Assembly: GCA_950295325.1 (NCBI GenBank)
Contig: OX485804.1
Span: 11,408,001-11,472,000, forward strand
Reading direction: 5' to 3'
Length of the DNA stretch: 64,000 nucleotides
From: Polytrichum commune
Lineage: Eukaryota > Streptophyta > Polytrichopsida > Polytrichales > Polytrichaceae
Numbering within the stretch: position 1 is the first letter of the stretch; each line of letters starts with the position of its first letter. Below, piece after piece: positions 2,943-64,000 of the stretch. The notes below the pieces were generated by a model. The model had not been told where the DNA came from. It saw only the letters and a program-made list of their open reading frames with translations, and did no database searches. The position numbers were made by a program, and so were the translations under genes.

Positions 2943-3335
2943 CTAAGGTAGGGGTGGCAATTTCCGTGCGGGTCCTAAAGTCGACCCCTATGTCGGAAGC
3001 ACCTTTTTAGGTGCTTTCACTTGGGTTTACAAAAACACCTATCAAGGTGCTTTTACCGTTCACAGCGCTGCCAGCATTTCATTGGCTGCCAGCGGTCGGT
3101 TTTAGAAATCCACCCTATGGATATACCACATACCCTATGTGCGAGTGTTGATCACTCTACAAGGTTTCCTTTAAAATTTTGTAAGAAATCATAAACATGT
3201 TGGAAAATTTTGATTTTTTCATAGTTGCTCTTGCACCAGCTTTGTGGAGCGCTCAAAATTTATAAAAAAAATAGTTTCAGCATCCCAACTAGGCACATCC
3301 GAAATTTGGGCGGAAACTGTTACCCCTACCTTACT
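2943..3335. mobile_element. hAT-like miniature element with AAGGTAGGGGTRRCA ends
   Basis: Left CTAAGGTAGGGGTGGCAATT and right complement AGTAAGGTAGGGGTAACAGT form about 24-bp inverted ends. GGGGTGGCAA-type ends are familiar from Ac/hAT elements of plants. I could not find a clean 8-bp TSD, so the exact boundaries are uncertain by a few bases. Confidence 0.5.
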
Positions 3336-14416: not shown

Positions 14417-14579
14417 CTGTAGAGTGTCTCATTGATAATTAGAGTATGATTTATATTATAACTGATGATTTGAATCTTTCAGTTAGTTTTCAGTAGATTT
14501 ATACTATGTTTGTGTGCGCTCATGAAGGTGGTAACTGAATCAATAGGTGGTATTGGGTCTGCCAAGGTGCAAATTTTGA

Positions 14580-16010
14580 AAGGTTGTGTCACAAAAGACC
14601 TCCTACATCTATGACATTTGATTCTTTTCAACATGTTGTCAAGGAGTCCAATAATCATCTTCAAGAACCACTCTCATCACAAGTGACACATCAAGAGGAA
14701 TCCAACAACATATTTTCAATCCAAGGTCCACCAGGGATCATTCACATTCCACAACCAAGTCCAACACAACTTCTAGCTACACAAGTTCCTACCGCAATGT
14801 CATGTACTTCACCAGCTCGGTGGCAACCCAAGTAGTTTATAGACATTATTATGTTAGGAGATCCAAACTAGGACCCAAGTCCAATTTGCATTTCGCCTCA
14901 AACTATTTTTTTCAAGACAACTAAATACTCTAGTCCAACACCTATGATTCTACAACTCATTATGGTTGAAAGTGCTTGTCCTTTGATTGCTAGCCTCCTA
15001 CACTTTGCTCACTCCACCCCTCAAATAAACAGTTGAAATGCAACAACTAATTTCCTTCTCCTTCTCCAACATGCTTCACCAACCTATACCCACAAGCACC
15101 CTCAATCTCATCAAGCATTAAGATAGTTTCTCTCCCCCCCTAATCCCCCAACGTACTCACACATGCTCAATACCAATACTCTTATAACCATGGTTTGCCC
15201 GCCATCATTACTCCACATGTCACAATCTATCACACTCACTTGGCTAACCCTATGTTCAATACGGTCCTCAACATCCAACACTTCTACCTCAACATAGTTA
15301 ACTCACATCCTCTCTAGGATACTTCAATCACCTTTTTCCACTAACAGAATGTCCCAACTCAACTCTCGAGCTCAATGCCTATCCCCTTCATTCAATGTCT
15401 CCCAACAGCTCCCCTCCCTCCCACAACATCTCAAACCAACAACCGCATTTACTCCCAAGGCCGTCCCCTTGACTTCCTCTGTGCCAATAACAACTACCAA
15501 CATGTTTCAATGGTCTTCGCCACCCCTATCCACCTATCCCCACCCATCTCCCCACACAACCTTAACTATTGGCTAGTCCACCACTTACCTTATGCCCCCA
15601 TTGCTTCTCCCATCCTTCCTGCACGTTATCCACCATACATACCGCATCTTCTCCACCTCATTTTGCCGAAAACTCTCACAACAACACTCTTTAACCTTCT
15701 CTACCCAACATATCACCACTCGATGCCTCCACCCATCTCCTCTTTCTTCAACTAGATCTCCACCATTACATCCCACACTACATCATGTAAATTACTCCTT
15801 TTTTCCACTCACAAGGAGTATGTCCTGCTTCCTTAATACACACTATTGTCCTCTCACTTTTACATGCTGCACAATCAACAATTCTCTCAAACTTCTTTGT
15901 CACCTACTCAATTCACCTCACAAGGGTTACATTCATGTGCACACTAACTCAACTCCTCTTCCACTCTATTGTCTACTTACTTGCATGCTCGCACCAACTT
16001 ACAACTACAC
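14580..16010 (+). other. CT-rich stretch upstream of the hAT transposase relic
   Basis: The plus strand is unusually rich in C and T with CA-rich words. This opens several Pro/Ser/Thr-rich frames (14584-14835, 15349-15576, 15375-15755, 15592-16134) in overlapping frames. None has a family signature and they conflict with one another. The composition could be the remnant of an N-terminal low-complexity region of a transposase, but I cannot show continuity with 16163-16531. Confidence 0.3.
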
Positions 16011-32110: not shown

Positions 32111-34430
32111 ATATACTGGTCCAACATTGGTGTCAACCCCCCTCTGCAGGGACTGAAATGTACATACTAAACAACAACAGGTAGATAGGAAAAGTAGTAG
32201 AAAGTAGGTGTACCATCCCTCAACGAAGAAACTTCTGCTCTTTGCTTGCGACAGCTCATTCCATGAGAGTCCTTCTCAATTCTATTTGCCGATTTAATAT
32301 ATAGAAGAGCCCAGAGCAATCGACAAACCTACTCCTCCTTTGGCGATTTCTACGCTGATTTGATGTTGATATGCTAGCGTGCCGAAGAATGATCATTGTG
32401 ACAGTCCAGTAAATAATCTGGGAGTCTCAATCTTAATTAATCGAGACCAAAATTAGCCCTGGTGAGGAGGCTCGAATTTGTTGCAATTAGGTGTACTTTG
32501 TCCATCCCATTTTCCCTCATTACTGTACTTCTCATTTGGTGTTACCTCCTTTGTCCTTCTAAGGAAACTGATCATTGGGCCTCATGCTCCCCTTGCATTC
32601 AACCACACTAAAAATTAAACGAGCTGATGCCAATTTCCCACCAGTTCGTTACAGGAGGTGGTCATTTGGTGATCAACATTTTCACTCATAAACCTTGTCA
32701 ATGAGCTAGTGAGTTATTTATTAAGGAAGAGTCAACTTATCTTGATACCTCCCTCTGATATAATCACGCCCATTAGTAGATCATTAAATTGATGTACATA
32801 GTGGTCACTCTCATTTAACATACCTGAAAGTCTCGTTTACTCTTAACTCCACTTTATTATCTGAGCGACTTCTTGGTCAACCATTCTTTGACTTCATCGT
32901 AGTTGAACTTGAATTAGAGATGAGTGCGACGCTGGTTTATTATACATGTAACTTCTGAAATGTGTAACTAAGAACATGATCCTTTGGATAGTATTAGTAC
33001 AAAATGGCTCAGAAATGCAGATTCTGAGATCTCAAGGTCCGTGGGCTTTGTGTGGTCACTCTTGTTATTCGGACACCTATTTTTGAGTGGTTTAGAGTGG
33101 ATATATATGTATCATAATGAGATGGGACTATGTGGTCAAAATATATTGATGACTATAGTTTCAGTCGGTAACACTATACTTTTATTTTGGAATCTAAGAT
33201 GAAGTCTATATATTGTTTCTAAATGGATGAGGCAATTCTCAATTCGATTCAATGATCATTATTATATGTGAAGTTGGAGTTGATAAGGCCACACCCCTTG
33301 TGTATTCTCCTCCTTGAGATGTTGGGTGGTAAATGCAATTCATTTCATGAATACTATAATTTCTCTTTGTAATTGATGATATAGAATCCTCATCAAATTC
33401 TTTCCAAGTTGTTATGTGTATATATAAAGAAGTGTCACCTTCCAAGTCCGTGAAGCTCTTATCATCAATTAGAAAGTCACAATCCTAATGTAACTATTTT
33501 GTGTCATATATACAATCTCAAAATACCATATGTACCAATTTTGTGTGTAACAATTCCCACATTGGAATTCAGGATACATAAGATTTGTGGTGCAGTTGGT
33601 TTTTCTGGATCAAGGCGACACACCTCTTATATATGCATGAGTCGACTGGGCCCAAAGTGTGACATAGGCAAGGGCTAATTAAATGAGTCTGGTAGGACTC
33701 ATAGGAGTCAATAATTTTGATATAATAAAAGCTCTCCTGAGGTGGGAGGGATGTCAGTGCAGTGGTGGCTGTGTGCTCCTTAAGTATAACAATAAACGAC
33801 AGAGACTGATGGAAGTGACGATGATGATCATCATCATCGCTACTTAAGCTACTTACTTAACTTAAGTGTGAAGGTGATCGACCCCCCCCCCCTCCCCAGC
33901 CGCCATGAGTGGCAGACATAAGCAATATCTGATTCAGTCGGCCATGATACAACCACAACCGAAATGACAGACAGGTTACGGCGTTGATCCGGAGTAACCA
34001 ACGACACCATACACACCGCCAACCTTTCCACTTCACTGAGTCACTGCCTCACTCACTCGTGCAGGAAAGGAGACCTGGAAAGAGATTGAATACCTAACTA
34101 ACGATGATAATCATTGAGATTACTTACAGGCATGATGAGATCATGTTGATTGATCAGCTACAGACTACCTCCCCTGGACCCTCAACCCTCCCCTACCGGC
34201 CACCCTCAATCATCTCCTCCCGGCCATGACTCCCACCATTACTCGATCGAGTCAGCCATGAATACGACTCGGCCGCACGGGCGTCCTGATATGATGAGAT
34301 TGTGATCGCGTCCCTCATCATATCGTATCAAGACGGTGGTGGTAGTAGTAGTAGTAGGTGGTGGTGGACTTTCAAATTGGACCAGGATAGCCCCATGGGG
34401 AAGAAGGAGAAGTAGTAGGAGATAGCTCAG
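32111..34430. other. Intergenic, no gene seen
   Basis: AT-rich to mixed DNA with short chance frames. C10 and GTG/GTA microsatellite tracts lie near 33880 and 34330-34370. Confidence 0.4.
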
Positions 34431-35842
34431 TTTCAATATTCTGGTTAGCCCTAGCAGCTGAGCTTCAATTGTTATAGGGGTAATGACAGCCAGGGCGGTG
34501 GAATTATGGAAGGATGGAAGGAAGGGGAGGAAACGGAGGAGATTTTAAAGAGATAGATAGAGAGGGGGGGGGGGGGGAGGGAGAGCATTCTTCTAGCTAG
34601 GGCATGCAGCAGGCAGGCGGGGACAGAATGATAAGAAGGCGCCGGCAACCCAGCTCCCTGCCACTGTCAGCTGCCTTGCCTCCTGCCTGCCTGCCTCCCT
34701 CCCTGACTGACTGATCTCGCATCATAAGCTTACCCTACCTGCTTCTGGTTTTGCAGTAGTGCAGATGATGCAGAAGTAGGTCCAGTGGTGTGACCTCACT
34801 CGCTCAGTGGTGTTACTTAACACTGCAGTGTAAGTAGTGTGATCATCACAGGCTGAGTCCGGAGCTGAGAGGGGCAGGGCAGCAGGAGGCCACAGATTGA
34901 GGGAAAAGGCCAGGGGCAGTGGCCATGGGTAGGTAACATAACATAAACAGGCTGCACAGAGAGTGCAGAGCAGGAGAGGCCCGGAGTGGCTGCACCTGGG
35001 AGACTGTGCAGGCAGGCAGGGCCCAGGGAGGCCGCAGGGATAGACAAAGAAGCAGGCTACACAAACCAGGAAGAGAGAGAAGAGAGAAGAGGAAGAAAGT
35101 AAGGAAGAAAGAGAGATTGAAAATAAGAAAGAAAGGTGAGACTTTGATGTATGGCAGAGCTGCTGCAGGAGTGAGCACGCCCCAGTTGCAGAGGGGCTAG
35201 AGAGAGAGAGAGAGAGAGAAGAGGAGAGAAGAGTACTTACTTACACCAGCCTTGGCGCTACCCACAGGCCTTCCACACGGGGGCAGCGGGCACGCACCCT
35301 TTGTTGCTGCTGCTCCTGCTGCACCTAAAGTATAACCTACTAACCTTCCTGTCTATCAATCTGGTTGGTACTTGGTTGGACCCGCGGAGCGAGCTATCTG
35401 CTCGTCCTTTCTTTCCTTTCCTTCCCTTCCTTCCTTCCTTCCTGCCTGCCTGCAGCAGGTGGTTACACGCCTCGTCTTGGGTGGCATGCGGGAGTACTAC
35501 TTACTACCCTTTCCACTTTTCAGTTTTCTCAGCAGCTGCTGCTGGCCCGAATTGGAGATTCGGGCTCACTGAGGGGAGCTTGGTGGGAGGGGTGGGAATG
35601 AAGAAGGAAGTGCTGGGGGTGGGGGAGCAGTTGCAGTTTGAGAAGAGCTTGTGGGAGGTGGTTGGGGCAGCAGCAGCACATGAAGAATATGGGGTGGGAT
35701 ATTATATGTTGTGTGGGTTTGGTGATAATGGCGATGCATGCTGAGGAGGAGCCGGAGAATGTTGATCAAATTAGACTATGTTGACGCGAGCATTAGCTTA
35801 GAGGAGTTGAGCAGCGAGCGAGCAAGAAATTGAGCGGGAGAG
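34431..35842 (+). promoter_or_regulatory. GA/CT-rich upstream region of the carboxypeptidase gene
   Basis: Composition changes sharply from AT-rich to purine- and pyrimidine-rich. It holds a G16 tract near 34565, GAAG/GGAA repeats (35070-35140), (GA)n at 35197-35219 and CCTT repeats (35408-35446). GA/CT-rich tracts are common near plant transcription starts. A weak TATA-like ATTATATG lies near 35700, about 140 bp before the ATG. Pro/Arg-rich frames on both strands are compositional artefacts. Confidence 0.45.
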
Positions 35843-38800
35843 ATGAAGATGTGGTGGCCCTGGATGTGTGGAGCGGTGGCGGTGGTTGTGTGCAGTTTGG
35901 CATTTGGGGGGGAGGGGGCTGACCCGTCGCAGATCGTGGACAGCTTGCCGGGGCAGCCTCGTGTGGGATTTAAGCAGTACGCGGGATACGTGACGGTGGA
36001 CGATGTCAAAGGGCGGGCATTTTTCTACTGGTTTGTCCAAGCGGATCATAAGAAGTCGGCCTCGTTGCCCGTCTCTTTCTGGTTCAATGGAGGTCCGCCT
36101 TTGAACTCTTTCCTCCTCGATCACAGTGAGGAGTGAACATGAGCTTATGCTCTACCGCCGTAGATTTGGTGGTGAAAGCCATGGTAGAATGGGCTATTTT
36201 CTTCGTGCAATTTCCTTCAGATCGCACGAAGTTCCGAGGTTACTTTGTGAAGCTGTTCTCCTCGAAAGTGCTGGTTGGAGGATTCCTACTGATCAATACA
36301 AGATAAACGTCACCAACATCTCAAAATGAATCTGTGGAGCGAAGGGTTTCAGATTGATCTCTTTCAGAATGTTTTCACGCAAATATATATGTCATCAATA
36401 GGTGGCTCCTGATGACAAGATGCAATTGATGATGTCACAGGCCCAGGATGCTCTTCAATAGGAGCAGGTGCAATGTCGGAGCTGGGCCCTTTCTTCAACA
36501 AGAACGAGGGCGCTGGACTGGTTCGCAACAAACATGCATGGAATAGAGGTACACACATTCATTGTTCAGGAGTATGATGATGAGAAACTATGTCGCAGTC
36601 GTGTATGCGAGCATGAAATTTCCTACTCTAGTTCCTCCCTGCCTGAGATTAATTGCATCACAGAGAGACTGTTGACGTTTCCGTGTAAATAGAAATTCAT
36701 CAGAACCGGCAGTAGTAGTGGGTTTCTGATTGTCCCCATGTTTGTTTATTAATTGTGATGATAAGCCAAGCTGGGCTACTTCCTGCTGGAAAGTTTGATC
36801 TTTATCAGTGTAGGTGTTTGAGTTGTCAACAGTTTCGAACATCGTCTTTGTGGATTCACCAGCGGGTGTGGGCTACTCCTACTCAAACACGACATCAGAT
36901 TATGATTACTTCGACGATGAACTCACAGGTAAATGGTTTGACACGTAAACCCCACCGAAATGTACCCAGTTCCAAAATAACAGCTCCATCGGTAACCAAG
37001 AAAAACCTTCCTGCAAGCATCATAAGTCGATTCATTACTGGTCGAATAGAATTGGTAAAATATCTTTTGTAACTGGGAATCGCATATTATTGCAGCTGTG
37101 GATTCTCTTGCTTTCGTCGTCGGCTGGTTCACCAAGTTTCCAGAGTACCGGCACAATGATGTCTACCTTCTCGGAGAGAGTTACACAGGTATATATATAC
37201 ACATCCATGCCCGTTAATCGATTGAATGGGTCAATCATTTTTGCTACCTTAAAAACTACCGAACTAGCAGGACTTACTCGGCGATTGATTACACAATATG
37301 GAAGGAAAATTCTTAAGAGTTCATGTGACGTGACCAATACAGGTCATTATGCTCCAAATCTGGCGAAGAAGATCCTGTTACACAACGAGGTGCCTGGCAG
37401 CTTCCACATCAATCTCAAAGGTTTTATGGTAAATTTATATATACCTTTGTTCTACAAATCAACTGACTATCCCCATAATTCTGTCAATGTTTGTGGGTGA
37501 CTGCATGCGTAAGTGTGAGTTGTTGTTCACAGATTTTGGACAAATGAATTGAGGTGGATAATATGTTGTGTCTGTGGAACCAGATAGGTAATCCTTGGAC
37601 AGATTCATACTACGACAACAAGGGGGCAGTCGATTTCTGGTACTACCACTCTTTGATCTCGGATGAAACGTACGCGGAGATTCAGAAGAACTGCGACTAC
37701 AAAGTGGAACCTGCAGTTGGATTCTCAAATAGTGCGGCTTGTCAAAATGCTGCCAACCATGCTTCCAATCTTGAAATGGCTGAGATTGACGCCTATAACA
37801 TTTATGCTGGAAATTGCAACTCGGCCAGTGTAAATGACTCCAAGGTCACCAAGGTAGGCTGGAACTCAGATTGTATATTATATGCAGTTATTGCATTGTC
37901 ACCTGTATCAAGGAAGCTGTCCAACATCAATAATGAATCTTCTAAGAAAAAACAATGCCAGAAGGTACTACTGTGAGCAGTTTTATATCAACTGTATACT
38001 AACAATCTAATGTGCCCAAAAACAAATCTGATTTTGCCCGGGAATTGTGATCTAACACATTGATGCTGTACAGACAAGACCAAGCTTCTTCCTGGGATTG
38101 AAAGACTCAAATTTCTGTTCCCCTGACACGACCACACCATACCTCAACTTGCCTGAAGTAAAAGCTGCACTTCATGCTCTACCTGGCATCAATTGGACGG
38201 AATGCAGGTGAGGAAATTTCATGGTCGTAGCTGCTGATGATGTATATAACTGAATGGAAAATTAAATACATGGCTACTCAGCTAATTCTGACGGGCGGAG
38301 TGCTGCTGGTTGTCATAATGTGCAGTTTGGTAATAAACAGTCAATACAGCGTGACAAGCGTCGTGCAGTCCATGCTACCTGTTTACAGATACCTTCTCAC
38401 GAAGAACCTTAAAATTTGGATATACAGGTAAATGATGAAATCTCCAGAGCCGTTTTAACATTTGTGAAAAATTGCATTGGACTCAACAAGCAGCTTGAAT
38501 TAGCGAATATAATACTGCAGGCAAGCTGTGAGCTGAAAACATCTGTACTTTTGCTTAATTACATTGCAGTGGAGACATAGATGGAGTGGTTCCCACGACG
38601 GGAACAAGATACTGGCTACGACAGCTTGGTCTTCCTGTTATGTCACCATGGTATCCTTGGAACCACACTACACAGGTATGATCATTTTACATTGGAAATT
38701 TTTCTTTCCACATTATACAAGATATGAATAAGATGATGTACGGATTTTCTACCCCGGGTTGTGGAATGCTGCTTGAGTTTGTATTTGAAAGAAGGAATGG

Positions 38801-40300: not shown

Positions 40301-40891
40301 AACCCTCAAAATTAATAGTTGCTTCAACCCTCATTTTGAACAGGTGCATGCTCATACAAGATTTCATAGATCGGAGATTGGCAAATCAAAAGTGAGTGTC
40401 CTATTTCCTGAAGATAATAGGCTATGGTTAGATCTGTCATGCTTGTCGAGGCTCTGATAAGGAGGTAATGGACTTCAGTTCTTGATTTCAAACATTTTGG
40501 GACCAAGATATTATTTATGAAAGTTAAGATCGGGTGGAGATAAAAAGTGGTTACTTAGGCTCCCCAATGCAAAGAGCGTCACTACTAGCATATATGGTTC
40601 TTGTCCAGTTTCACCCCAGTAACTCCCAGGTGCGTGGGTCATACTGCAACTTGCTCCAAATAATGAGGGACAAAGTGTGCACATTGAGTGCATCGACTAT
40701 AAGGATCCATTGCAACTGGAAATAATAATAAATGAGGTCATTAAAAGCTCTGTGTAGATGTGCATGCAAGGTAATTTCACGATCGCCCACCTGGAAAACC
40801 TCAATTTTCCCATTTTTCAGAGTGAATAGGTTTAGGATACATTATGCATAAGGCCTCTGCATATTGATAACATACCTCAAACGAGGAAGAC

Positions 40892-41359
40892 CAAGAGAAC
40901 TAGCACAGCGGCCCATAACCATCAAACACAACATGGTCATGTACATGCTCTGTGGCCATACATCACAACATTTGTCAATTTTGTAATCTTCAAATCCAGC
41001 CTTTATTTCAAAATTTGCAAAAATTCTTTACTGCTTGCATAAAAACTCAAGAGAACTAGCAAATCGGCTCATAACCATCAAAGACAACATGGTCATGTAC
41101 ATGCTCTATGGCCACACATCACAAAATTTGTCAATTTTGTAATCTTCAAATCCAGCCTTTACTTCAAAATTTGCAAAAATCCTTTGCTGCTTGCATAGAA
41201 ACCCAAGAGAACTAGCAAATCGGCCCATAACCGTCAAACACAACATGGTCATGTACATGTTGTGTGGCCATACATCACAACATTTGCCAATCTTGTAATC
41301 TTCAAATCCAGCCTTTACTTCAAAATTTGCAAAAACCCTTTGTTGCTTGCATAAAAACA
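40892..41359 (-). repeat. Three tandem 156-bp units encoding a 52-residue repeat
   Basis: Units start at 40892, 41048 and 41204 (period exactly 156 bp) and are about 90 percent alike by eye. On the minus strand 156 bp equals 52 codons, and the same frame reads through all units (FANFEVKAGFEDYKID, CDVWP, MYMTMLCL). Unit 1 has CAA-to-TAA and unit 2 CAG-to-TAG relative to the others, so the array is no longer fully open. A (CCATGG)n run follows at 41359-41376. I do not recognise the peptide. Confidence 0.7.
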
Positions 41360-47990: not shown

Positions 47991-50900
47991 GATGGTATCA
48001 TGGTTATAAAATGGTTGACACTGTTATAGTAAGCCAATATGCTCACTATAAATGCCTAATTACACTAGTAGGTTGAAGTTCTATATAGTTGCTTCGATAA
48101 TATTCAAAAGCTTTAATTCTTAAAGGTTCTTAGAAATTGATTCTAAAAATTTCTAAAAATATATATTTTTTAAAAACCATTTTTTTAATTTATAAATTTA
48201 TAAATTTTATTACATATAAAAAAATAAAAAAATACATTTCATAAAATTGAGGCATTTATAAAATATAAAATATTTATAGATTGTTTATACCCATATAAAT
48301 ATGGATTCTTAGATATTTAAAGAAATCATAAAATACCATCGCATCAAGCACTTAAAGTGCAAAATTAAAAATATACATTACATTTTATTCATAAATAATA
48401 TTAGACTAATATTTTCTAATTATCAAAACGTATTCGACTTAATATTATCAAAACATTAGATTATTTGAACACCAAATCCTCACTTTAGATTATTAATATT
48501 TTGTATTAGTATATATATATATTTCAATTATAACCGAAAATTTGTATTAATTGAATTATATATTATATATTTATATAGGTCTTGTAAGCCTATAATGTGC
48601 AACCTAATGTAAAGATAATTTATATAAAGTTCAATAATTTTTTCATGTTATTTATGAATATTTTTTTGAATATTTTTCCTTCATTTTCATATTAATCATA
48701 CTTGAATATAGTATACATGAGGCTCATGAATTAAAAAATAAGAAACAATTTTTATTTTTTTTACATGTATAATAAAATAATTTATTTATTAGACATAAAA
48801 TTTTAAAAAATGTATGACAAAACTAGTAGATGAAACTAGTAGTGTATAGTACATTATCGTAAAATTTTATTGTTATTATAGATTATGTAGAATTTAAAAT
48901 GTAGATTTTTTACAACTTTTGCTGTCAAACAATAAAATTTTGTCAGAAGCAAAAAAAATAACGTCTTAAAAAATAAAACAAAATATTCTAACTTTCGTAT
49001 TTTTTTTAAAACAATGTGCAAAAATAATTAAATGAAATTTCAGGAATTATTTTGTTAATAATCTATTTTCGTCTTGTTTTGATTTTTATAATTATTTGTA
49101 TAGCTTGTATATTTTCATTTTTCAATGTATGATTAAAAGTAGTATTAATATTTGTTTGATTGTTGTTAATTTAAAATACCAAGCTATAAATTGAACCATT
49201 AAATTTTTGCTGATAAAATAAATGTGAAAGTTATTATTGATAGATTTGATGACCTTCCTCCTGAACAAGAATATTTTCAATATTAGATAATCAAGGTTGT
49301 TTATTTGAATTTTGAAGAACTCTGAACTCTGAAAAATTTTCTTATAAAGATAAGAAGAAGAAAAATGTTCATATGGGTCATACAAATATAGGTTTCATTT
49401 AAATGATCATATGAAAAAAATTAGGAATCAAATGAAAATGTATGACTGCAAATAATAACTTCAATTATTAAATGACATTGTAAGAAATCCTATAATATTA
49501 TATAAGCATTTTTCTTTTTTAAATTATTTAATACTAATGTTATTTTTTATTTTTTTCCTTCGTAATAAGACCATAATAGAGAAAAGGAAGTGGATTTTTC
49601 CTTCCATAAATCTTCACAACAACATTTATGAAATGGAAAATGCGACTAGCATAAAGAATATTGAGATAGCTCGTGAGATTTATAAATCTAAATGTTTCAA
49701 TGACATTGAAAATAAAATTATTAAAAAAAATACAAGAAGATGACAAAGAAAAAAAATTATGAGTATATAAATTAAATATGATGGAAAATTTTTAAAAAAA
49801 TAATAATAATCAAAACGAAGAAAAATTTGTAACAAAGAAGACCAATTAGTTTTAAACTTCCATAGAATTCAATAAATTATTTTTTTATGATTGAATCATC
49901 AATATATCTTATGATGCAATTTTTATAATTGTACCATCTTACTTTTGACAATGTTTTATTATATGTAAGAAAATTTGAATGTGTGGTTTCTTTTTAATTT
50001 CTAAATACAAAGAAATTCATGAATTCGTGAAGAAAATTATATAAGGTAAAAGTAATGAGGGTTTTTTATATGAGGTTAGAAATGTTGTAATATTTCCAAT
50101 AAGATCTTAATACTATAATAGCCATCTTAAAAAAATAGACATAAAATTACAATATTATTTTCCATTCATAATGGATATTATCAAATGGTTTAAATGTTTT
50201 GAAAGTTATATATTTATTATCAAATATTTTTGTAAATATTTTGAAAGTTGTATATTTGTTCTTATAATTCATTATGTGACATCTAGTATATTATCTTTTA
50301 TGCACATTTTATTCCATGACATTTAGTATAATTACAAATTATATTAAAATATATATTATACTTATATATATGCAAATTATTGAAAACTTTAAAATTATTT
50401 TTATTCTTCTCTAAGATATTTTGTAATAAGTTAACAAAAATTTATCTATCTAAAGCACTATGAGGTTTTTTTTTCAAAGAATACATCGTTAGCATTGTTT
50501 GTTTACGCAAATCTGTTTATTTGTAATAGAATTTTCTAAACCAATATCAACTATAACAAAAATAGCTTAAGGGATACGCTGTTTGTCTCTATTTAAACTG
50601 CAATTCTTTAAACATTAAAGATAATTTGTGTCATCATTGCTTCCACTTCTTATAGAAGTAGATAACCACATTTTTTTGTTTTTTCTCTAACGTGATATTA
50701 TATTTTTTTGATAGCCAAATAATTTTCTTAAAGGTTGGATAAGAATATTATTAACATCTCCACCTATATTTGTGGCATCTTTGATATGCTTCTCCTTTGT
50801 CGTTCATAATAACGTTATTGTTGATGTTATCTTCACAATCATAAACATTACCATTTTCAAATAGTTTTATTGATACACTTAATTCAAACAAGGCCTCAAT

Positions 50901-51199
50901 TCCACCATGAATGCATCTATATACATACCAAAAAATTCTAACATAACACCTTATAAAATATCAGAAATTATTTTAATAAGGAGAAGTTGGTTTTTGCACA
51001 TGTACATTCTAATACACTACTTAGAAAAACATTAGACATACAAGGCGTAGGGAATCAATGATATCATACCAACGTCCTGGAACACATTGTAATTATATAT
51101 GTTATCCTTCCGAATGTGCTACATGATGACGAATGTGCTCCAATGGAATAATTTTTCTTTTAAAATGTCATTAGCCATGATCTTTTCTAATCGCTTATT
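47991..51199. other. Extremely AT-rich stretch
   Basis: Composition falls well below its surroundings, with long A/T runs and almost no CpG. Short frames (49122-49385, 49537-49743) are Lys/Ile/Asn-rich and unassigned. Probably heavily mutated transposon DNA, since a decayed transposase abuts it at 51200-52440. Confidence 0.5.
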
Positions 51200-52440
51200 A
51201 AGATAAAAATCTTTTGATTTTTTACTGAATTATACATGTAGTGTGTAATTATAAGCGGAGTTAAACGCCACACTAAGTAATCTATTCTACGACCTCGAAG
51301 TTGATGGTTGTCAATCTTCATCCACCGTTTCAGAGCTGCATAATAAGATTCAATATTTGTGTGTTTTGGTTTGAGTGTGAATTCCGATGGTGACCCACAA
51401 GATACATCTTTTTAAAATACAAATCATTTAAAAAAATCAATTTTTATATTTTTATAAGGAATATGATACAATAAAAGAGTAAACATCATAAAATAAATAA
51501 GGGAATGAGATTTGAAATTAAAATAGATAGGCAATGACAGTCAAAATTGACTTTGATGGTCATAGTGTACGTCAATGAATTGTTCTATTTTTTCCACATA
51601 TAAAAAAACTTGAACAATTTCTCCTTAATTATATGAACTTATTTCAAGAAATCCTCTTCTTTCTCCTTGTATTCAATAAGAAGATATGTGACAATATGCA
51701 TTTTTTTGTTAACTAGATCCTTCAACATATCCAAATTAGGTATATTTGACCAATTGTGGTTTCTCCAATTCTTCAAAACATAGAAAACACATAAATAAAT
51801 GAAAACCCCGTTTTCAAGCCATGTTCGCTTTATTGTATTCCTTAGATAATCTGCATCATAAACAGTGAAGGAAGACAGAAAAAAAACTCCTCCCTATCTC
51901 TATGGAGGTGCCTTCGTAATAGCTTTAGCCACATAATAAAATCTTCTTTTATCATTCAGCTAATGAGCACCCAAGCTATGGGAATTTCATTCTTCAGTCA
52001 TCAAACATCAATAATGAAAATTATGGATACTTCGATACATTGGTTCCAAATATTGCATCCATTGTAGTGGCTCTTTTGTGTCCATATTTGAACATCATTT
52101 ATTTTTGTTATGATGTTTGTATACCTAGAATAAAAAGAATAATTTATAACATCATCATTTTTATGCCATATGAAAAGGTCATCTAGGTATTTCAAAGCTA
52201 TATTTTTCACACTGTCTAATTCATTATGGTGGCGGCGTCATACTCCCATTTTCAATATGTTTTTATAATAAGCAATATCCTTAAGCTGAACAAAATCATC
52301 ATGTATGTCTAGGCATTTCATCTTCCTCCATTGAATTCAGTTTTGCATGTGCTCTTCATAAACTTGTTTAGTAGTAAATCCCTTACCCAATTGTGTCTTC
52401 AGCCAAGCTTTCAATTCTTGTAACATCCCTGTCGAATCTG
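51200..52440 (-). pseudogene. SWIM/MULE-like transposase relic
   Basis: On the minus strand, in order and broken by many stops: MLQELKAWLKTQLGKGFTTK (about 52430-52350), ALKYLDDLFIWHKNDD (52200), NEIPIAWVLIS (51996-51960), LENGVFIYLCVFYVLKNW (51830-51750), and HTNIESYYAALKRW followed by GRRIDYLVWRLT (51370-51250). The order matches the DDE transposases of SWIM-finger Mutator-like proteins: a P-V-A-W-x-I-S strand, an L-C-W-H-V-x-R-x-W-like helix, then N-x-x-E-S-x-x-x-x-L-K and GRR-x-D-x-L-V/I-x-x-L. No catalytic triad can be assigned. Family assignment is moderate. Confidence 0.5.
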
Positions 52441-53836: not shown

Positions 53837-56496
53837 TAAGTCACATATAGAAAGAAAAGAAAAATTACGCCCGTACATTGTACCGGCATGAATGTGAGCC
53901 CGTTATCCAAATGCTTAACACATCGGACCATGTAACACTATATTCGGTAATTGGAGACTTTTTGTTGATTATGAGACTATATAAGGATGCGCATTTCAAA
54001 ATTGGACCAGTAATGACGACTAAAAATCCCATATGTATAATGGTATGCTACTATTATTATACATAAAGGCATGGAAGTGAACAAAAATGTGAGGCATACA
54101 TGAAAATAGTTGCGTATGAAATGACAACTCGTTATGAATGGAAGGGAAGGTGCGAAGAATGAATGGAAGTTTAATGAATTAATTGGGATTGAAATACAAT
54201 TATAATGGAAATACCATCAATGTCTTGAGTAACTTGGAATAGCATACTAGAAAGTAAGCACTTAAATATGTTCTACACCTAAGCATTTAGGGAGTCCGTC
54301 CCACTAGTACGCTTCTAGTCACACTAGTCCGACCCACTATTTTTTTTTTGCGGCTAAGTCCATTTTTTTGGCGGCCTCCATGGCTCTAAAAATCTCAGGC
54401 CCATGACTGTATCCTTGTGTGTTGCCTGGACAGGAATATGTGTCGTTCTTGCATGTTTCAGGACGCGCTCCCGAATTGTACGAGGTGGTATTATAAGTAG
54501 AATACGAGGGCGTTTGCAAAAGGGAACGTCTTGAGCTTCTCCGGAGGGCCAGACAACGATCGGACTCGGAAGATGCGGCCTTGAGGGCGTGCCTATCCAA
54601 GGAGGACGTGGAGGAGGGCCGGGCACCAAGCGAGCGGGTAGCCACCTGCGAAACAACGTCATAGGAAGATAAAAATAGGAATGGAGTGGGAAAAATAATG
54701 AGGGCGGTTTGGGATGGGCGCTCGTAAAGAGAACGGCACGCACACGGAAGACAAACAAAACAAAAGCGGGAAAGGGGTTTAGGGTTGAGGAGGGCACCTT
54801 GGCTGTGGGGACGTCCATGCGGGGAACGGTAGGAACGAGGGGGGCGTCGACGGGAGCATCCGGAGCCGATGGAACTATTGCACTGTTGGATGGCGGGGGG
54901 GAGTCGAGGCGTGGAGGAACGGAGTCGGCGGGGGAGGTGTGGCAACGGGGGCCTTCCATGCGGAGACGCCGGCTCGGCCCACGACGAGCGACGGCGTCGT
55001 CCCTCGAGGGTGAGAGGTGTCCCAAACGAACGAGCGTCCGTTTCTCCTTGGAGAGGGGGGAGGGCGACGGGGCGTACGCGCGGGGGACAAGTGCTGGGGG
55101 CGGGCTGCCTCTGGATCCATGACCTCCGCTGGACGCTCCTCCTGAGACGACTGGGTCTGTTGGATGAGCTCCACGTCGTCGTCCCCGCCCAGGTCGAGTC
55201 TCTCCATGCGGACATCCTCCATGTGCGCAGACGGATGCCCTTCCTGGTCAGGGCTCTCCACAACCATCCCACGCGGACCTGCCGAGTCATTGGGGCTCCC
55301 CTGCATTTCCTCCACAATGACCATGTCAGTGTGTTGCGCAGTGTCATCGCCCCGCCTATCTAGAACCCTTGGGACGACGGTGAAAGAGGCCGTGTCGGTG
55401 TCTGTGGGCAGTCCTACCCTTGAAGGGGGAGGGGTGAGGACTGCCGGACCTGAAGATTCACGAACGCGCGTTCGTAAATCTTCGTCCTCCCTTAGCGCTG
55501 CCGTGATTGCATCGTGGGAGGTTGAGGCGGCCGCCGTCACTTCCGGGGGCAATGGACTTCCCGCCGGCGTTGGGTGTGGCGCTGTTTGGTGGGAAGGCCC
55601 TCCTTGGTACATGACTGGAGGTGGGGGCTGTGAGGGGTATCCTCCAGGGGGGGAAGGGGTAAGGTTGCTGGACCGGCGCAAAGAGGCTCTGCATGTTTCT
55701 GAGCATCTCGAAGATGGCGTCGGTTTTGGCCGCTGAATCCCTCAGCTGCTCTTGCAGCCTGGCCAGATGCTTCGCGCTCTCCTCCTGTGCTGCAGCCATC
55801 TCCTCCTTCATCTTCGCCTCCAGCTTGGCGTTGAGCTCAGCGACGGTGAGTGTCTCCTCCTTCACCCGCTTGTTCTTGTCGTAGTCCACGCCAAGCTCGG
55901 CCATGATGTCCATGTCCCCCTCGTCCTCGTCCGAGACCTCGATGATTGCTCCCGGCGGCAACTCCACGTATGGAGTCTTCTTCATCCTCCTCCTCGTGTT
56001 GCGGAAGAGGTCCAAAGATGGCCGCGAGCGTTGGTCGAGGATGTCCAGGGTTTCCATCTTCGGAACCACGGCGGGCCTTGGAGACTGTGACGTCGAGCAT
56101 CCGCCTGGCGTTCCGAAAGGCTCCGCAAGAGATGTTCTCGCCGGGAGGACGTCCAGGGTTGTCCCCGCGGACGACCCGGTGTAACCACCCGGCGTCCCTT
56201 GAGGGTCGGGAAGATCCGTCGTTGGCGGCAAGATCCGAAACGGGGGTATGTCGAAGGACTGCAAAATGGCGTCCACGTTGGCGGAGGGGGTGGGCTCGTC
56301 GTCCTCAGAATCGTGGAATGGTATGCCCTCGTCGGCGGGCATACTGAAGTCCGTCCTGGGGACAGAGATGTCCTTGAGGTCCATCGTCGACGCCTTCGCA
56401 CGGTGGATCTTGAAGTCTTCTTCGTCGATAGCGTCAACGAATGTGTTGACTACGAGACCCATCATCTGTGAGAAGAGAGCAATAAGGTCAAAAAAT

Positions 56497-56666
56497 ACGA
56501 ACGCACGTTCGTAAACATCAAAGCGTAGCGTGCAACGAGTTTCAAGCATTACATTACGAAGGGGTTATGTTTACGAACGAACGTTCGTAAACATGAATGC
56601 GTCACGTGCAACGACTGTGAAACAATACATTGAGAAGTTGGTTAACTTTACGAACGAGCGTTTGTA
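56497..56666. repeat. Three TACGAACG-NN-CGTTCGTA palindromes inside the second intron
   Basis: At 56497-56514 (centre CA), 56572-56589 (AA) and 56649-56666 (AG; one arm TTTGTA). They lie wholly inside intron 56467-56687, evenly spaced at about 75 bp. Further copies: 55459-55476 within exon 3 (first base C), and 58046-58063 and 58104-58121 in intron 58013-58128. Confidence 0.95.
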
Positions 56667-58045
56667 AATGGAGTCTGGACAACTTACCATAGCCGCATAT
56701 ATGAATTTGGAGCCTCCACATACGTTGTATACCGTCTCTCCACTTATAACCAGACTCTGCAATACAGAGACGTAGAACTCCATCCTGAGTTCCATGGCGG
56801 GGAAGACGGTGTAGAGGGTCTCTTGCAGCAGATCCTTGGGAGGGGGATGCGGGATGCTGTAGATTTTCTTGAACGTGTGGTTTGCCTTGATAGGTGGTCG
56901 CCCATCCCTTAGCTCATTGTACGTCAAGAAAATCAGGCTGACTGCTCCCACCTACTTGTTGCCCCTGGCCTCGTTGATGGCCACGATCCCCTCCGTCTTC
57001 GCTGGCACGTACGTGCTGTGGAAGATGCTGTACTCGAATTTGATCTTCTGCTCGTACAGCTCTATGACCACAGAGAGCTTCTCTTGTTGACTATCCACAG
57101 CCAAACGTGTGGCTCCCTCTTGGCCGGCGATTTGAACTCCATGAACTTGGCCATGAAAGGGTTGTAGAAGGGAATGTCCTTCCCCCCCTGCCTTGACGCA
57201 CCCGGGATCCCCCTGAAATCGATGAGGGCAAAAGGGCAACCCCGTCGATCCTCCCTCACCTCGGCCCTGCTGATGGTGCCGTCCCACTTGGAAAATGTGA
57301 CCCTCTCCACGCCGGAGGTGATCACGCAAAACCTTGCCACTCCTTCGAATGTGGCGTTCCTCTTCCTCTCCAAAAATTTTAAGTACAGCATAACCTCATG
57401 GGGATCCGTGTCAGTTTTCTTAGTCCTTTTGTTCCCCTTCAACTTCAAAACCGAGGCGTGCTCCTTGACCAGACTGCGCATGGAGGCTCCGTTGATGTTG
57501 TAGTCGACCTTTAACATTTGCCATTGCGGCCAGATGATGTCGCCGTCGACTTCAAAGATTATGTACTCTGGTATGAGTACGCTCAACTCTCTCATGGCTG
57601 CAGTCTTCAGCTTCCGGTGGTCACACCACTCCTTGATAGAGTACGTGCCGGGCTTGTGCTTTGGCCTCTTCAAAAAGATCTTGGGATAGGGAAGGGTTCT
57701 TCCCACGGTGTTCCCAAGAACATGAATCGCACACCTCTTCAGCTCTGACTCCGTCAATCCCTGGAGGTGTCTAAAGAACTCCCTCAGTAGTGGGGGCGCT
57801 TCACTGGTTTTTTCCGTGCTGTACTTCTCCTCCGTGTCGGGGTTGACCAAATCGCCCGAGCTGTGTGCATCAAAAAACTGGGTCCACAAGTCCCATGTGT
57901 CCCTGTTGCAGCAGATCAGTCTGAGCTCACCCTTCAGCTCAAGCACAGACTTTGTGGTGGTGGACTTCATATCGATGGAAGAGAACTTGTCTACCATCGC
58001 GTCGCAAAATGCCTGCACAAAACAAGATGTCAGTATTGCACATAA

Positions 58046-58121
58046 TACGAACGCACGTTCGTAAATTGAGTCAGTAATTGATGTTTTCGTGAGTCCAACA
58101 CTTTACGAATGTTCGTTCGTA
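58046..58121. repeat. Two 18-bp palindromes in the first intron
   Basis: TACGAACG-CA-CGTTCGTA at 58046-58063 and TACGAATG-TT-CGTTCGTA at 58104-58121 fill much of the 116-bp intron 58013-58128. They sit close to the donor and to the exon boundary without disturbing GT or AG. Confidence 0.95.
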
Positions 58122-59453
58122 AACTCACCTTCCATTGAGGAGACTGGTTCTTGGCGTTCTCCCTCTCCTTTGGTGGGCATCCGTGTGCCACCCAGATGTC
58201 TCTCGCAGCCACTATGTTAGCCACCCACGAAGCCTCGAACACCTTGATTTTGTTACCCGAGTTCAGGAAGGTTGAAATCTTGCGTAGTTTGTCCCAATCG
58301 TCCGACCAGACCAAGAACGCCTTCCAGTACCACAGGTCAGCCTCCAGCTCGTGCTGGAAGTTGTCGTCCTTGAGGATCTGTTGCGACGCCTCCAAGCTAT
58401 GCTGACCATCTATAATCCAGAATTCTTCATTCTGGATTCGCGGCCAATCCATCTCTGTCGGTCGGGATGTCAGCCCTTTGGGCATGACGCAGATGGTCTG
58501 CCTATCCCACTTGACGTTGTTCATGAGGTTGTTGATCTGCCACTTTACCCCACCGCTCTCGCGAGACCTTACCACCCACTTATTGGGGGATTTTTCGCAC
58601 TTGAAGCAGTCCACGTTGAACGTGAAGTGGCGCCCCATGGGCCAGCAATCCTTCGAGTAATTATTGAAATCTCGTAGAATCTTCGTTGCCTTCACTGCAT
58701 CTGGATTCTCACCCTTCTTTAAAGGGGTTGGCATCAGGGGAGGAGAGCTCACCTCAACGCCCTCTGTTACCCCAGACCTCTCCATTTCGTCCCGGGACCT
58801 CTTTGATGGCGTGGAATGTCGGCTGGGACCCTCCGTCACCCTGCTCGCGGAAGGCACCGGCCTGGGTGCACTTCTCGATCCTCCTGCCCCGGATGCGGAT
58901 GGTTTTCATGGGCTCTTCTTCTTCTTGTTGGCTTCGGCGACCGCGCTATTGTACTTGGAGATATTCAAGGAAAGCGCGGCCAACTTCCTTGCTGTCCAGT
59001 ACGAGCTTAGGGCGTACTTCGTGAACAGGTCCTTGAGGAAGTGTTTGGCATCAGCCACTACGTTATTTTCTGCGTATGTGTAGGAGAAACTATGTCTCCT
59101 GTACTCTAACAGGAGGTTAATGTGATCCTTCTTATTTTTCATGTCTAAAATCACATAATCTCCTTGTGCCTCAATTGATTCTACTTCCCAAGTCTTCATC
59201 TGCACCCATTGCTCTGGCTGGTCCGGCGTTGTTTCCAGCTCGTAGGTGAAGCGAAGACAGAAAAGACCGTCTGATGTTTTCTCTGGCAGTGCCGTCCATT
59301 CCCCAATGAAGTCCTCCTTCGGGACATAATTATCGTTTCCGTTGGGGTCGGACACTGACTCTGGTAGCTGATCTATCTGCACTGCGAACATCTCAATGGC
59401 GCTCCTGCTCGGTCTAGCCATCTGCAGAGCACATAAACATTTAGTATTGTGTT

Positions 59454-60017
59454 TACGAACGAGCGTTCGTAATTGACAAGAAAATCATATATACTAATCA
59501 ATGAACGCTGGCTATGGATACCCGTGAGGAGTTTTAATTATGTCATCGCCGATTTCATTTACGAACGATCGTTCGTAAAGAATGTGGTTGCTAAGGTGTA
59601 TTTGACACAAGTTTACGAACGTGTGTTCGTATTGTTTGTAAACAAGTCCACGAGTTGTCCAGTGTTATCTAATTTCCACGAGGGTTGTTCGAATTTCTAT
59701 GAGCATCTTCTAAATAGGTGAATTAATACTTTAGTTCTTATTTACGAACGTGCGTTCGTAAATTATGCTACTTGGGAATGCAGACAATTACCATTAAGGG
59801 TTTGGGATATTATTATAGTTTGTGATTACGAACGTTCGTTCGTATTTTTGTATGTTTCATTTGGATTTGAGGATTTGAGGATGTACAGGGTATAGACGAA
59901 TATACGAACGTGCGTTCGTAAAAATGGAGGGTGAGGTGCGTATTTACGAACGCACGTTCGTATATGTTTGTGGGGTAAGGCATGTATTCACGCCACATTT
60001 ACGAACGAACGTTCGTA
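59454..60017. promoter_or_regulatory. Array of eight 18-bp palindromes upstream of the DGQH-type gene
   Basis: TACGAACG-NN-CGTTCGTA copies at 59454, 59560, 59614, 59743, 59827, 59903, 59945 and 60000, spaced 42 to 129 bp. The nearest is 33 bp before the ATG (59421). The flanks often add TT/AA, making the palindrome longer. Arms are nearly invariant while the central two bases vary (AG, AT, TG, TG, TT, TG, CA, AA). Inferred: binding sites for a dimeric protein that controls or mobilises the gene. The sequence between sites is not repeated. Confidence 0.85.
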
Positions 60018-60539
60018 AATGTGGTCATCTGGGATTAGGAAATGGTATATTTATTTATATACATATATCCGTACATATACATATACGTGTATATGTTGTT
60101 ATGAATGTTGCGATCTGGCATTGTTCATGATCCTGCAACTCGTGATCAGATTGATGAAACACAAGTGAAAAATGGAATCAGAACAAAATTTGCGAGTCAG
60201 TGATTGATAGTTCAGAATGAAGAGGAAAGTGTTATTTCATACAAAACATGCCATACCTCATAATGCAGAAAACAAATCACAAGGAATTCATCAAACAACA
60301 ATTTCAGATTGTAAAGGACTGATTTGTAAAGGAAACCTGTACTCACATTGAATTGTTGCACAGTTTCCCTGCCTCCTACTGAGAAATCCAGAAATCCTCA
60401 CAAATGCACACCAAATTGTCTTTCAAAAGCGCTGAATTCGCTTTCAATTGTAATTTCACTTTGTCACACTCTCAAGCCTTCACAACTTATATGCAAATCC
60501 TACACAAACCCTGATGTACACAACTCACAACCTTCAGAA

Positions 60540-60805
60540 ATCTCAAGCTTTCTGAAACTCTCAAGCTCTCAAGCTTTCCCACTCTCAAGCTCTCAAGCTT
60601 TCCTACTCTCAAGCTCTCAAGCTTTCCAAAACTCTCAAGCTCTCAAGCTTTCTGAAACTCTCAAGCTCTCAACCTTTCTGAAACTCTCCACTTCTCAATC
60701 TTTCTAAAACTCAAGCTCTCAAGCTTTCTAAAACTCTAAACCTCTCAAGCTTTCTATAACTCTCAACCTCTCAAGCTTTCCTACTCTCAAGCTTTCCTAT
60801 TCTCA
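60540..60805. repeat. CTCTCAAGCTTTC minisatellite
   Basis: Imperfect tandem repeats of ACTCTCAAGCTCTCAAGCTT, ending near 60805. The frame 60348-60707 (Leu/Ser-rich) reads through it and is an artefact. Confidence 0.88.
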
Positions 60806-60839
60806 AGGTTCTGACAACACAACAAAACAACATTCACAA

Positions 60840-61000
60840 TGAGGCTCTAAAATTGGCAAGGGCTTCGCCGCACCTAAGAGCTCCTCTCCCCCTCTGCTCC
60901 AAATGACAAATGAGGAGGAGAGAGAGGGGCGCGGGGAGGTAGTCGGCGCCGCTAGGGTTTCCAAGCGGCAGCCACGTGGCTAGTGGCCACTAGCTAGGGC
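60840..61000 (-). other. GC-rich island with plant 5'-UTR-like words
   Basis: On the minus strand it reads AAACCCTAGCGGCGCC, preceded by a CCACGTGG G-box palindrome (+ strand about 60973). AAACCCTA (telo-box-like) next to a G-box and a CT-rich leader is typical of plant 5' regions. I see no downstream gene on either strand, so this may be an orphan promoter or captured fragment. Confidence 0.3.
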
Positions 61001-61160
61001 TGGGATGGGGGATGGGGGATGGGGAGGGGATGGGGGGGATGGGGGGGAGGGGATGGGGAGGGGATGGGGGGGAGGGGATGGGGAGGGGAGGGGAGGGGAT
61101 GGGATGAGGATGGGATGGGAGAGGGGGAGGGGGAGGGTATGGGGACGAGGGGATACCATG
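61000..61160 (+). repeat. GGGGATGG-type G-rich tract
   Basis: About 150 bp of GGGATGGGGGA-like imperfect repeats, strongly purine-asymmetric and with many G-runs of 3 or more, so G-quadruplex formation is plausible. The Gly/Trp/Arg-rich frame at 61005-61199 is an artefact. Confidence 0.9.
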
Positions 61161-61551
61161 GGGACATGGAGGGATGAGGGTTCAGGAAAAATGAAATAGG
61201 AGATGGGAGGAGCTTAGTTTAAGGACATAAATTTAACTTTGCGTATCCCCTTAGTACCTCGACATATGGATTCCTTGTAAACATATTTTAGAAAAGTATG
61301 TTCAGATAATTTGTATTTAACAATTCACGTCATTTAGTAGGTTTTCGATGAAGAATCCACCCCCAAGATGCAAATGTCGTTTTCATGAACGAGACATCTT
61401 TAAAGTTCTTCAATGGTTCCTCAAATACATATTACATATATAAATGACTCAATTTGAATTGTGGAGAGGGGCTATCTGATTCTCCACAAGAGGTGGATGA
61501 AAATTCAATTTTCAATACGATGTCATTAATTTAATGAGGTGTTAGCTTGAA

Positions 61552-61904
61552 CCACCCTTAATATGATATTTAGTGTTAGATACTCTAAATACAAACGCAT
61601 AGTACACTAAATATCACTAACCCTATGAAAGTAATTACTATTCATTGTGAACTCAAACACTTAATTTCAACTATAATGGTAATATGTGGATGTCGCATGC
61701 ACAAATTTTGTGTAAGGAAATTAATATGAAAAAAAAATTAACAATGATAAAAGCATAAAGGACATGGTAGTAGGAAATGTGGTGGCCCATTTAATATGTC
61801 CAACAATAATTATCAAAGAATTGAAATTTAGTGTTGACCATGATTATAGTGTAACAACACTATATTATACAATCAAACACTAAATATCATATTTAGTGTA
61901 GTGT
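61552..61904. mobile_element. CACTA-type MITE, copy 3
   Basis: The right-end complement CACTACACTAAATATGATAT and the left ...TTAATATGATATTTAGTGTT form the inverted ends. The interior is colinear with 22676-23008. The left tip has decayed (ACCACCCTTAATATG). Confidence 0.75.
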
Positions 61905-62089
61905 ATTTTAGCCATGTGGTCGCATGTTTTGCTAGTAGTATCAATAATTGATAGTATGAGCTTCCCATAAATTAAGTTATTGCGATATGGATTATTTAGG
62001 AGTCGATATTGTTTGTGTATATAATGCATTGAAGTAACGATCTAAACCCTAAGCCCGCAAACCACATAGACAACTTTCACAAACTCTAT

Positions 62090-62120
62090 ACCCTAACCCC
62101 AAACCCTAAACCCTAAATCC
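62090..62120. repeat. Short interstitial telomere-like repeat (CCCTAAA)
   Basis: ACCCTAACCCCAAACCCTAA followed by ACCCTAAATCC: four degenerate heptamers of the plant telomere unit. Confidence 0.75.
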
Positions 62121-63336
62121 TACATCTTTTTATCTTACCAACCTTTCTTATATATGGCCATGTTGTGGTCTATGCGCATCATGTCAAAATGGTCTACGAA
62201 TGTTGGTTCGATTGGAACTTGCCTTATTTGGGTCATAGCAACTATAATAATCTAGACTCATGCCAATAATTGTCATTTTGATATAAAACATTGGTTTAGG
62301 GGGTGAAGAGTGAATTTTGAAATGCTAGCCCTTTCACCTTAATAGTTTTGAGTGCAATTTGATCACAAAATACACACTTAGTCTTATTATAACATGAATG
62401 GTTTAAGACTTCAACTTAAATCAACAGTTTAAGCTATGGTCATGCACATACTTCTTGTTGCAAATAATACAAATATATAATTGTAAGTGCATACTATTGT
62501 ATGCACCATTCCAAATTAGTTATCCATTTCCACACCATGGTGGACCTAAAGTGAATTTCCAATAGGACGTCAAGTCATTTAATTAGGTGTCAACTTGAAC
62601 TAACAATCGAATACTAGTGCATTAAACTTTAATTTTCACCAATGATGAATTGCAACAATGAGTCATATTAATATGGGGCGATGTTTGGTGAGCCTCCAGT
62701 TCCAAATGTCCTCAATCTACCCAGCACAAGTCACTATGGATTAAACGATTTTTTATTGGTATTCATGCACTTGGTGACCATATTACAAGCATTTTTTTAT
62801 GTGAATCATATGATACCTATAATTTTAGGGGATTCCACAATATGTTCTTAGCCACTCTTACTTCATTGTGTGTGTGAATATATATATCACTTAGACCTTC
62901 ATCAATTCACTTGGACTTCACACCTTAGTCGCAAATAATTTAATACTCAATGTTAACCCATCAACCCATATATATAATATAATAACTCATATATAAAATA
63001 GTAAAATAGTAAAATATAAATTATACATATATATATATACATATACATACATACATACATATATTGCGCATGGATGGAATGACATATTGTTAGGTCAAAG
63101 TAGGCGGCAGGAATCCGCTTTTTAAATAGCATCCAAGGGATTTTGAACCATCGGGGGAAAGGTACTTAAAGCTCTTCCCCCCACAGAAGAGCTCTTTTCT
63201 GCGGCACATCCAAGTGTACGCTCCACAGACCTGACTGGAACGCGCTCAAACCATTTTCTTGTGCGCCAACCCCACACCTCCCAGGTCCACTATAAACTGC
63301 ACATACCCGTATATACCGCCGCAAATACCGGACGTT

Positions 63337-63954
63337 TACGAACGCACGTTCGTAAACGTGAGTTGGTAGCACATGCACAAGAGGTATATAGAGATGATGT
63401 GAATTGTTTACGAACGTGCATTCGTAAGTTGTTCACAACCGTACTCGACATTGAGTTACTTATAGACAGAACTAGGCACGAAAATTGTGTCGATTATATA
63501 CGAACGTACGTTCGTATATCTGCCTTCAAGACCCAGACGCGCATGAGTTCCCGTGTAACCGTTTTCTCCAACGGAACATCTGATGATGGGATATTTACGA
63601 ACGTGCGTTCGTAAATATCACCTGGGATTATTTTTCAAGAATCCATAAACATTCCTTAATTTATACACTTCCGTGCATTGGCCACGTTAACAATATGGAA
63701 GTTAAATACAAACGCTCGTTCGTATTTCTCACTACCATTTATGTCCACAGAGAATTATGTTTTCCAATTTTACGAATGCACGTTCGTAAATACCACCTGT
63801 CCACCGTCCACGCATCCACCAACAGACCTGTTAACGCAAGCATGTGTGGAGGACTACACCATGTTTAGGATAGATACGAACGCTCGTTCGTATTTGGCAC
63901 TACCATTTATGTCCATGGAGAAATGTTTTTTAATTTTACGAACGCACGTTCGTA
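63337..63954. repeat. Second array of eight 18-bp palindromes
   Basis: Copies at 63337, 63409, 63499, 63596, 63707, 63771, 63875 and 63937 with centres CA, TG, TA, TG, CT, CA, CT, CA; spacing 62 to 111 bp. Four copies carry a single arm change or are near-perfect. The array is about 3.3 kb from the first one with none between, and probably continues beyond the window. A TATA-like tract and GC-rich DNA precede it (63100-63330). By analogy with 59454-60017 it may front another gene copy to the right or mark the far end of a large element. Confidence 0.9.
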
Positions 63955-64000
63955 AATACCACATGTCCACCGTCCACGCATCCACCAACAGACCTGTTGA
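63707..64000. repeat. Tandem duplication of about 167 bp containing two palindromes each
   Basis: 63707-63838 and 63875-64000 align: palindrome with centre CT, CACTACCATTTATGTCCA, palindrome with centre CA, then TGTCCACCGTCCACGCATCC and ACCAACAGACCTGTT. It shows local expansion of the array by duplication. The second unit is cut by the window end. Confidence 0.85.

Follow-up and report, generated by a model that had tools for sequence, protein, structure and literature searches.

The 64-kb window analyzed here (Polytrichum commune contig OX485804.1, positions 11,408,001 to 11,472,000) contains a large DNA transposon with terminal inverted repeats (TIRs) in a single, damaged copy, which carries an accessory gene for a predicted ParB-like protein and numerous short palindromes in and around that gene. 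Related elements in the same genome form three protein-palindrome families, A, B and C, in which site and protein diverge together. The sequence comparisons make it quite likely that the accessory protein binds its palindrome, and self-recognition of this kind that counteracts silencing is, with modest confidence, the best overall explanation of our data.

The 18-mer palindrome of the window, that of family A, occurs at 23 sites when up to 3 mismatches are allowed, compared with 0.08 expected from shuffled sequences. The site at 55,025, with 3 mismatches, is doubtful. The remaining 22 (15 exact, 7 with one mismatch) all lie within 55,459-60,017 or 63,337-63,954, in agreement with a preliminary description of this DNA that had confined 22 palindromes to 55.4-60.0 and 63.3-63.95 kb. 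Introns and 5' flanks hold 21 of them; the other one, at 55,459, is in the remnant of exon 3. The site scan delimits a field 5' of the accessory gene (59,454-60,017, eight sites), a palindrome-free middle (60,018-63,336), and a field 5' of the transposase gene (63,337-64,000, eight sites), none of which is assigned a strand; the last field runs on beyond the window end, with three exact sites in the locus L009. Part of the sites are within tandem units. The full unit, derived from 254 sites with at most 2 mismatches in the window and the loci L009-L035, is a 22-bp palindrome, TTTACGAACG-NN-CGTTCGTAAA, whose centre is nearly free.

The transposon itself spans 53,934-68,491 (no strand assigned), its right end, base 4,491 of L009, being located past the window end. 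Its borders were set by matching the TIRs, which begin with AACACTATATTCG at both ends, to copies on other chromosomes, two of the compared copies being about 99% identical to each other. The left TIR (53,934-53,962, plus strand) is preceded by the target site duplication (TSD) ATGT at 53,930-53,933 (no strand), which is repeated after the right TIR, and all four copies with both ends read have TIRs and a 4-bp TSD (ATGT, ACTA, CTTG, CATA). The window copy measures 14,558 bp and an intact one, hereafter the C4 copy, 16,112 bp. The transposase gene is situated past the window end, on the plus strand (frames L009:768-2438 and 2450-4090) and has a DUF7869 domain (Pfam, E 8.6e-39); the accessory gene is on the opposite strand, and the two are divergently transcribed. 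Of 974 candidates for the ParB-like exon in its own genome, 146 were scored as matches; 23 of these share a bit score of 556.5, and 19 of the 23 have a 511-amino-acid frame, implying recent activity of the accessory-gene family. The preliminary description had proposed a mobile or segregating element outside any standard plant transposon class. TIRs, TSDs and the many copies bear out mobility, while segregation, including a parS-like role, is not supported and was rejected in view of the dispersal of the copies over chromosomes. Support is likewise lacking for an element without a class, since its TIRs, 4-bp TSD and DUF7869 transposase give it a resemblance to Sola1-1_Ec32.

The arrangement of the sites is clearest in the C4 copy, where the 21 exact ones occupy four places: 5' of the accessory gene, intron 1, intron 2 (four sites in the introns together) and 5' of the transposase. 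None falls in the long open reading frames, which account for 51.5% of the element length (binomial 2.5e-7), and none is closer than 4 kb to an element end; in view of this placement, subterminal transposase sites were rejected. Exon 3 of this copy contains two imperfect sites, as judged by reading.

The accessory gene, on the minus strand, comprises exon 1 (432 amino acids), exon 2 (442 amino acids) and exon 3. Exon 1 (58,129-59,421) encodes WIIDGQHSLEAS and FLNSGNKIKVF; their presence in a first exon, as previously described, was confirmed in the translated minus-strand frames. Structure prediction and fold search likewise support the ParB/Srx-like fold that had been proposed, as a predicted fold, here with DGQHS and following an N-terminal PH-like domain. 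The window exon has an in-frame TGA at 58,906-58,908, and shows 86.8% identity to the open 432-amino-acid exon of the C4 copy. Intron 1 (58,013-58,128, 116 bp), whose boundaries follow from GT/AG and the homologous exons, holds two palindromes, one of them starting from intron base 8. Exon 2 (56,688-58,012), pieced together from two overlapping tblastn matches, has a broken frame in the window copy; it consists of a helical region at approximately residues 1-220 and, according to fold searches, an amino-methyltransferase fold. Intron 2 (56,466-56,687), with boundaries placed by reading the sequence, holds three palindromes in 76-bp tandem units, and the exon-3 remnant extends over 55,174-56,465. 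The window copy is without the 3' end of exon 3 and without the NIF-like phosphatase frame present on the minus strand of the C4 copy (E 1.5e-16).

We therefore predict an accessory protein in which a ParB-like domain is combined with a degenerate amino-methyltransferase domain. The catalytic motif of amino-methyltransferases is (D/N/S)PP(Y/F/W). None of 29 exon-2 sequences has (D/N/S)PP(F/Y/W/L) and all 29 have DF(R/C)..P, so that the catalytic motif appears from the sequences to have been lost. The Pfam scan of exons 1 and 2 gave no ParB or methyltransferase family, the matches all being below the curated cut-offs (among them DUF6551, E 0.012, for the protein P0012). A viral fold search with exon 1 found no match at E <= 0.001, some of its weak rows being phage ParB/sulfiredoxin proteins. 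Close relatives were confirmed for 0 of 19 pattern matches in prokaryote genome contigs and for 0 of 37 in viral contigs. As for the phosphatase, a family-C element carries a relative of the C4 frame with 42% identity. DxD is the catalytic motif of NIF/FCP1-like phosphatases; in the frames at L029:2924-3694 (minus strand, family A) and C1:2479990-2480838 (family C), DLN stands at its position.

Genome-wide, there are 4,680 exact copies of the family-A palindrome, 9,731 of a second one (family C) and 1,147 of a third (family B, termed M3), and the reversed-pattern controls gave 0 copies for each. The sites are thus found throughout the genome, yet linked to the gene family, and the protein tree and the exon-neighbourhood counts given below uphold the earlier proposal of such a link. 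Beside the family-A exons, 97 of 1,060 candidates were scored for family B and 96 of 1,068 for family C. Exon 1 of family C shares 35-36% identity with that of family A; the family-A palindrome is absent from the three fetched family-C loci, where TTTGGGTCG-NN-CGACCCAAA is found instead (16, 13 and 14 copies), placed in the corresponding introns and in the 5' flank.

Metagenome protein frames that read into the introns spell the palindromes as peptides, corresponding to ACGAACG in family A, ACGGACG or ACGGCCG in family B, and GGGTCG and variants in family C. A tree was built from 46 exon-1 proteins whose tails had been removed. Its 33 labelled rows (read-through gave 29 labels and DNA 4; 13 rows had none) require 6 changes for the seven motif types, which is the minimum, with the reservation that labels were set after the peptides had been inspected and that 14 of the 43 inner branches are weak. 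One M1-type peptide match in P0115, a family-C protein, falls within the protein body outside the intron read-through and is therefore taken as chance.

The ACGGACG palindrome was deduced from the metagenome peptides before the genome search, and the positions of the family-B exons were determined only later. All five family-B exons scored on C1 below 37.1 Mb have M3 sites no more than 12 kb away, which holds for none of the 17 family-A and -C exons scored there (Fisher 3.8e-5); conversely, of the 48 M3 sites listed on C1 below 37.0 Mb, 45 have a family-B exon at a distance of 12 kb or less. A comparison of the lists shows that, on C1 below 2.54 Mb, all four of the scored family-A exons are enclosed by family-A palindrome clusters; 100 family-A sites are listed in this region, two of them singles away from scored exons and 33 in a non-autonomous element.

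Transposases were found at the place predicted from the layout in one family-B and one family-C element. Their identities to family A (C-terminal part 85% for B and 66% for C; N-terminal part 77% and 56%) exceed those of the accessory-gene exons (between A and B, 43% for exon 1 and 54% for exon 2, taken from a different family-B element than the transposase; 36% between A and C). The transposase is thus the more strongly conserved part, and it is the accessory exons that have diverged, along with the palindrome. Families A and B even have nearly the same TIR and different palindromes. In one locus (L038:4099-4120, within C5:22309901-22314500), a palindrome is altered symmetrically in both arms, from ACGGACG to ACGGCCG. 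This altered form, the M4 palindrome, has 27 exact copies and lies within 6 kb of 16 of the 20 exons of the subclade concerned versus 0 of the 77 of its sister, with seven of its sites near no scored exon. In the only element of this kind that was read, M3 is the main motif and M4 occurs a single time, for which reason M4 was rejected as a fourth private motif and counted as an inherited variant site.

The non-autonomous element mentioned above is 9.5 kb long (C1:639,070-648,560, L012-L013) and has TIRs and the TSD CATA. It retains a phosphatase fragment and a 225-bp stretch resembling the 5' part of the transposase frame, but neither exon 1 nor exon 2 of the accessory gene nor the main exon of the transposase gave a match in it. 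Its 33 exact sites form two fields, 21 of them in the one with an approximately 160-bp tandem array.

From the anatomy of the element, the position and number of its sites and the joint divergence of site and protein, all of which are observed, we propose that the accessory protein, presumably as a dimer, would bind the 22-bp palindrome specific to its lineage, both in the accessory-gene introns and close to where the two genes have their 5' ends. This self-recognition may shield the bound regions from host silencing, whereby both genes could be expressed and the copies, non-autonomous ones included, could stay mobile. As a single function, anti-silencing is the best candidate by analogy, and we regard its chances as about even. 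The CpG content is compatible with it: each family-A and family-B site has four CpG, and the ratio of observed to expected CpG is 0.90 in the window element and 0.96 in the C4 copy, compared to 0.51 in window positions 1-53,933. With the sites masked, the ratio in the window copy is 0.74 and 1.10 in the flanking fields and 1.21 in intron 2, with 0.41 in the element middle; in the C4 copy, it is 0.99 and 0.74 in the fields and 0.48 in the middle. CpG has thus been retained in genes and fields alike and not in the middle, a pattern that fits low germline methylation of the genes and fields. A more specific version, which we put forward tentatively and consider rather doubtful, is that the ParB-fold protein uses its own palindromes, which bear CpG, as nucleation sites, spreads or recruits factors across the element, and blocks silencing, giving each lineage a private address system that arose apart from the VANC proteins and diversifies by paired protein-palindrome changes within one genome.

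Several observations weigh against the proposal. The coding parts are likewise high in CpG (window copy 0.66-0.89, C4 copy 0.74-0.94), and therefore the CpG sign is weak and does not single out the palindrome fields; intron 1 of the window copy, with sites masked, has a ratio of 0.41. The arginine of the GxxR motif is absent in all 59 DGQH-holding proteins, the next residue being S (56), T (2) or N (1), so that a ParB-like clamp cannot be assumed. As for the second palindrome, most of its clusters listed on C1 lack a scored exon in their vicinity (96 of 1,068 candidates being scored), and its link consequently rests on five loci (L033-L035, C1:621,527 and C1:2.474-2.479 Mb). In addition, the sites retained by the non-autonomous element could equally reflect a need for them in transposition.

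The last point would be expected if the palindromes were transposition assembly sites, to which either the transposase or the accessory protein would bind in the manner of the subterminal repeats that CACTA elements have, as an element without the accessory exons and the main transposase exon keeps and multiplies them. However, the exact sites of the C4 copy avoid the 4 kb next to either end and include four in introns, and families A and B differ in palindrome despite the similarity of their transposases and TIRs, which makes this role unlikely in our view. The clustering of sites 5' of both genes and in introns could also point to a transcriptional autoregulator of the element genes, like KorB or DndB, with no effect on silencing. 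We give this somewhat less weight still: the usual operators have fewer sites than the approximately 20 per element found here, and the element without the accessory gene nevertheless keeps its 33.

An N6-adenine or N4-cytosine methyltransferase activity of the protein, by which it would modify its own element as proposed for algal transposons, is improbable given the absence of the catalytic motif from every exon-2 sequence compared. Least probable of all, to the point of being nearly negligible, are passive repeats or host-factor sites hitchhiking with the element; some sites are indeed in tandem units and some copies nearly identical, but both arms change symmetrically and the motif type matches the protein lineage.

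Other features of the window were also recorded. A very AT-rich segment (48,001-52,000, GC 0.20-0.27), a strong C-over-G strand skew (-0.42) at 14,001-16,000, a GC-rich block (0.54) at 34,001-36,000 and three 156-bp tandem copies with 91% matching (40,891-41,358) are present, and Rfam and tRNA scans of the window gave no matches. Directly to the right of the element, RNase H-like minus-strand frames at L009:4799-6070 were judged by eye to be probably part of a retrotransposon without long terminal repeats.

Among known systems, Sola elements have a 4-bp TSD. The resemblance to Sola1 lies in the accessory gene and this TSD; the transposase here was identified by its DUF7869 match. According to the accessible part of the report on Sola1-1_Ec32 of Ectocarpus and related algal transposons, these carry ParB and methyltransferase accessory proteins, and share with our element the large size and an accessory ParB-like and methyltransferase gene opposite the transposase (PMC12477816); recognition sites or targets are not described in that part, and the catalytic motif here appears lost. 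We found no report of such sites in the open-licence literature, as far as its accessible text extends. What our data add are candidate targets, namely thousands of defined palindromes and three protein-palindrome pairs in one genome, so that each protein's expected palindrome is now clearly predicted. In phages and archaea, ParB-fold proteins are fused to methyltransferases, and in those tested the GxxR arginine is reported to be required for nucleotide binding (PMC12704722). These fusions and DndB are similar in joining a ParB-like fold to an amino-methyltransferase, whereas the gene here is eukaryotic and spliced, with GQHS for GxxR in most proteins.

With bacterial ParB-parS, the element shares a ParB-like fold and clustered palindromes, but it shows no sign of a partition function, the P-motif arginine is absent, and the site is 22 bp long with a free centre. 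If the more specific version of our proposal is true, it would represent a eukaryotic use of ParB-parS logic. The nearest functional parallel, by analogy, is VANC, the anti-silencing protein family of VANDAL transposons in Arabidopsis. VANDALs are Mutator-like elements (MULEs) and are defined by the VANC protein family (DUF1985) in a MULE; DUF1985 had no match among the element frames scanned with Pfam, and, to our knowledge, VANC proteins are not ParB-like. The present element further differs from VANDALs in its DUF7869 transposase and 4-bp TSD, and its role against silencing is a proposed one. VANC proteins are reported to bind a short motif in noncoding element DNA, with rapid joint divergence of protein and motif and with loss of methylation (PMC5735166, PMC10398659). 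Our elements are similar in that an element-encoded protein family and a short motif co-diverge in a family-specific manner (PMC5735166, PMC10398659). The VANC21 motif is present in the introns of VANC21 and VANB21 and 5' of VANA21; the placement in introns and 5' of the transposase gene and the tandem units are thus alike, although that motif has 9 bases in one orientation and no palindrome, in contrast to the palindrome here (PMC5735166). If true, our proposal would make these elements a second, independent case of self-recognizing transposons beside VANC, in which protein-DNA co-evolution and escape from silencing become directly testable.
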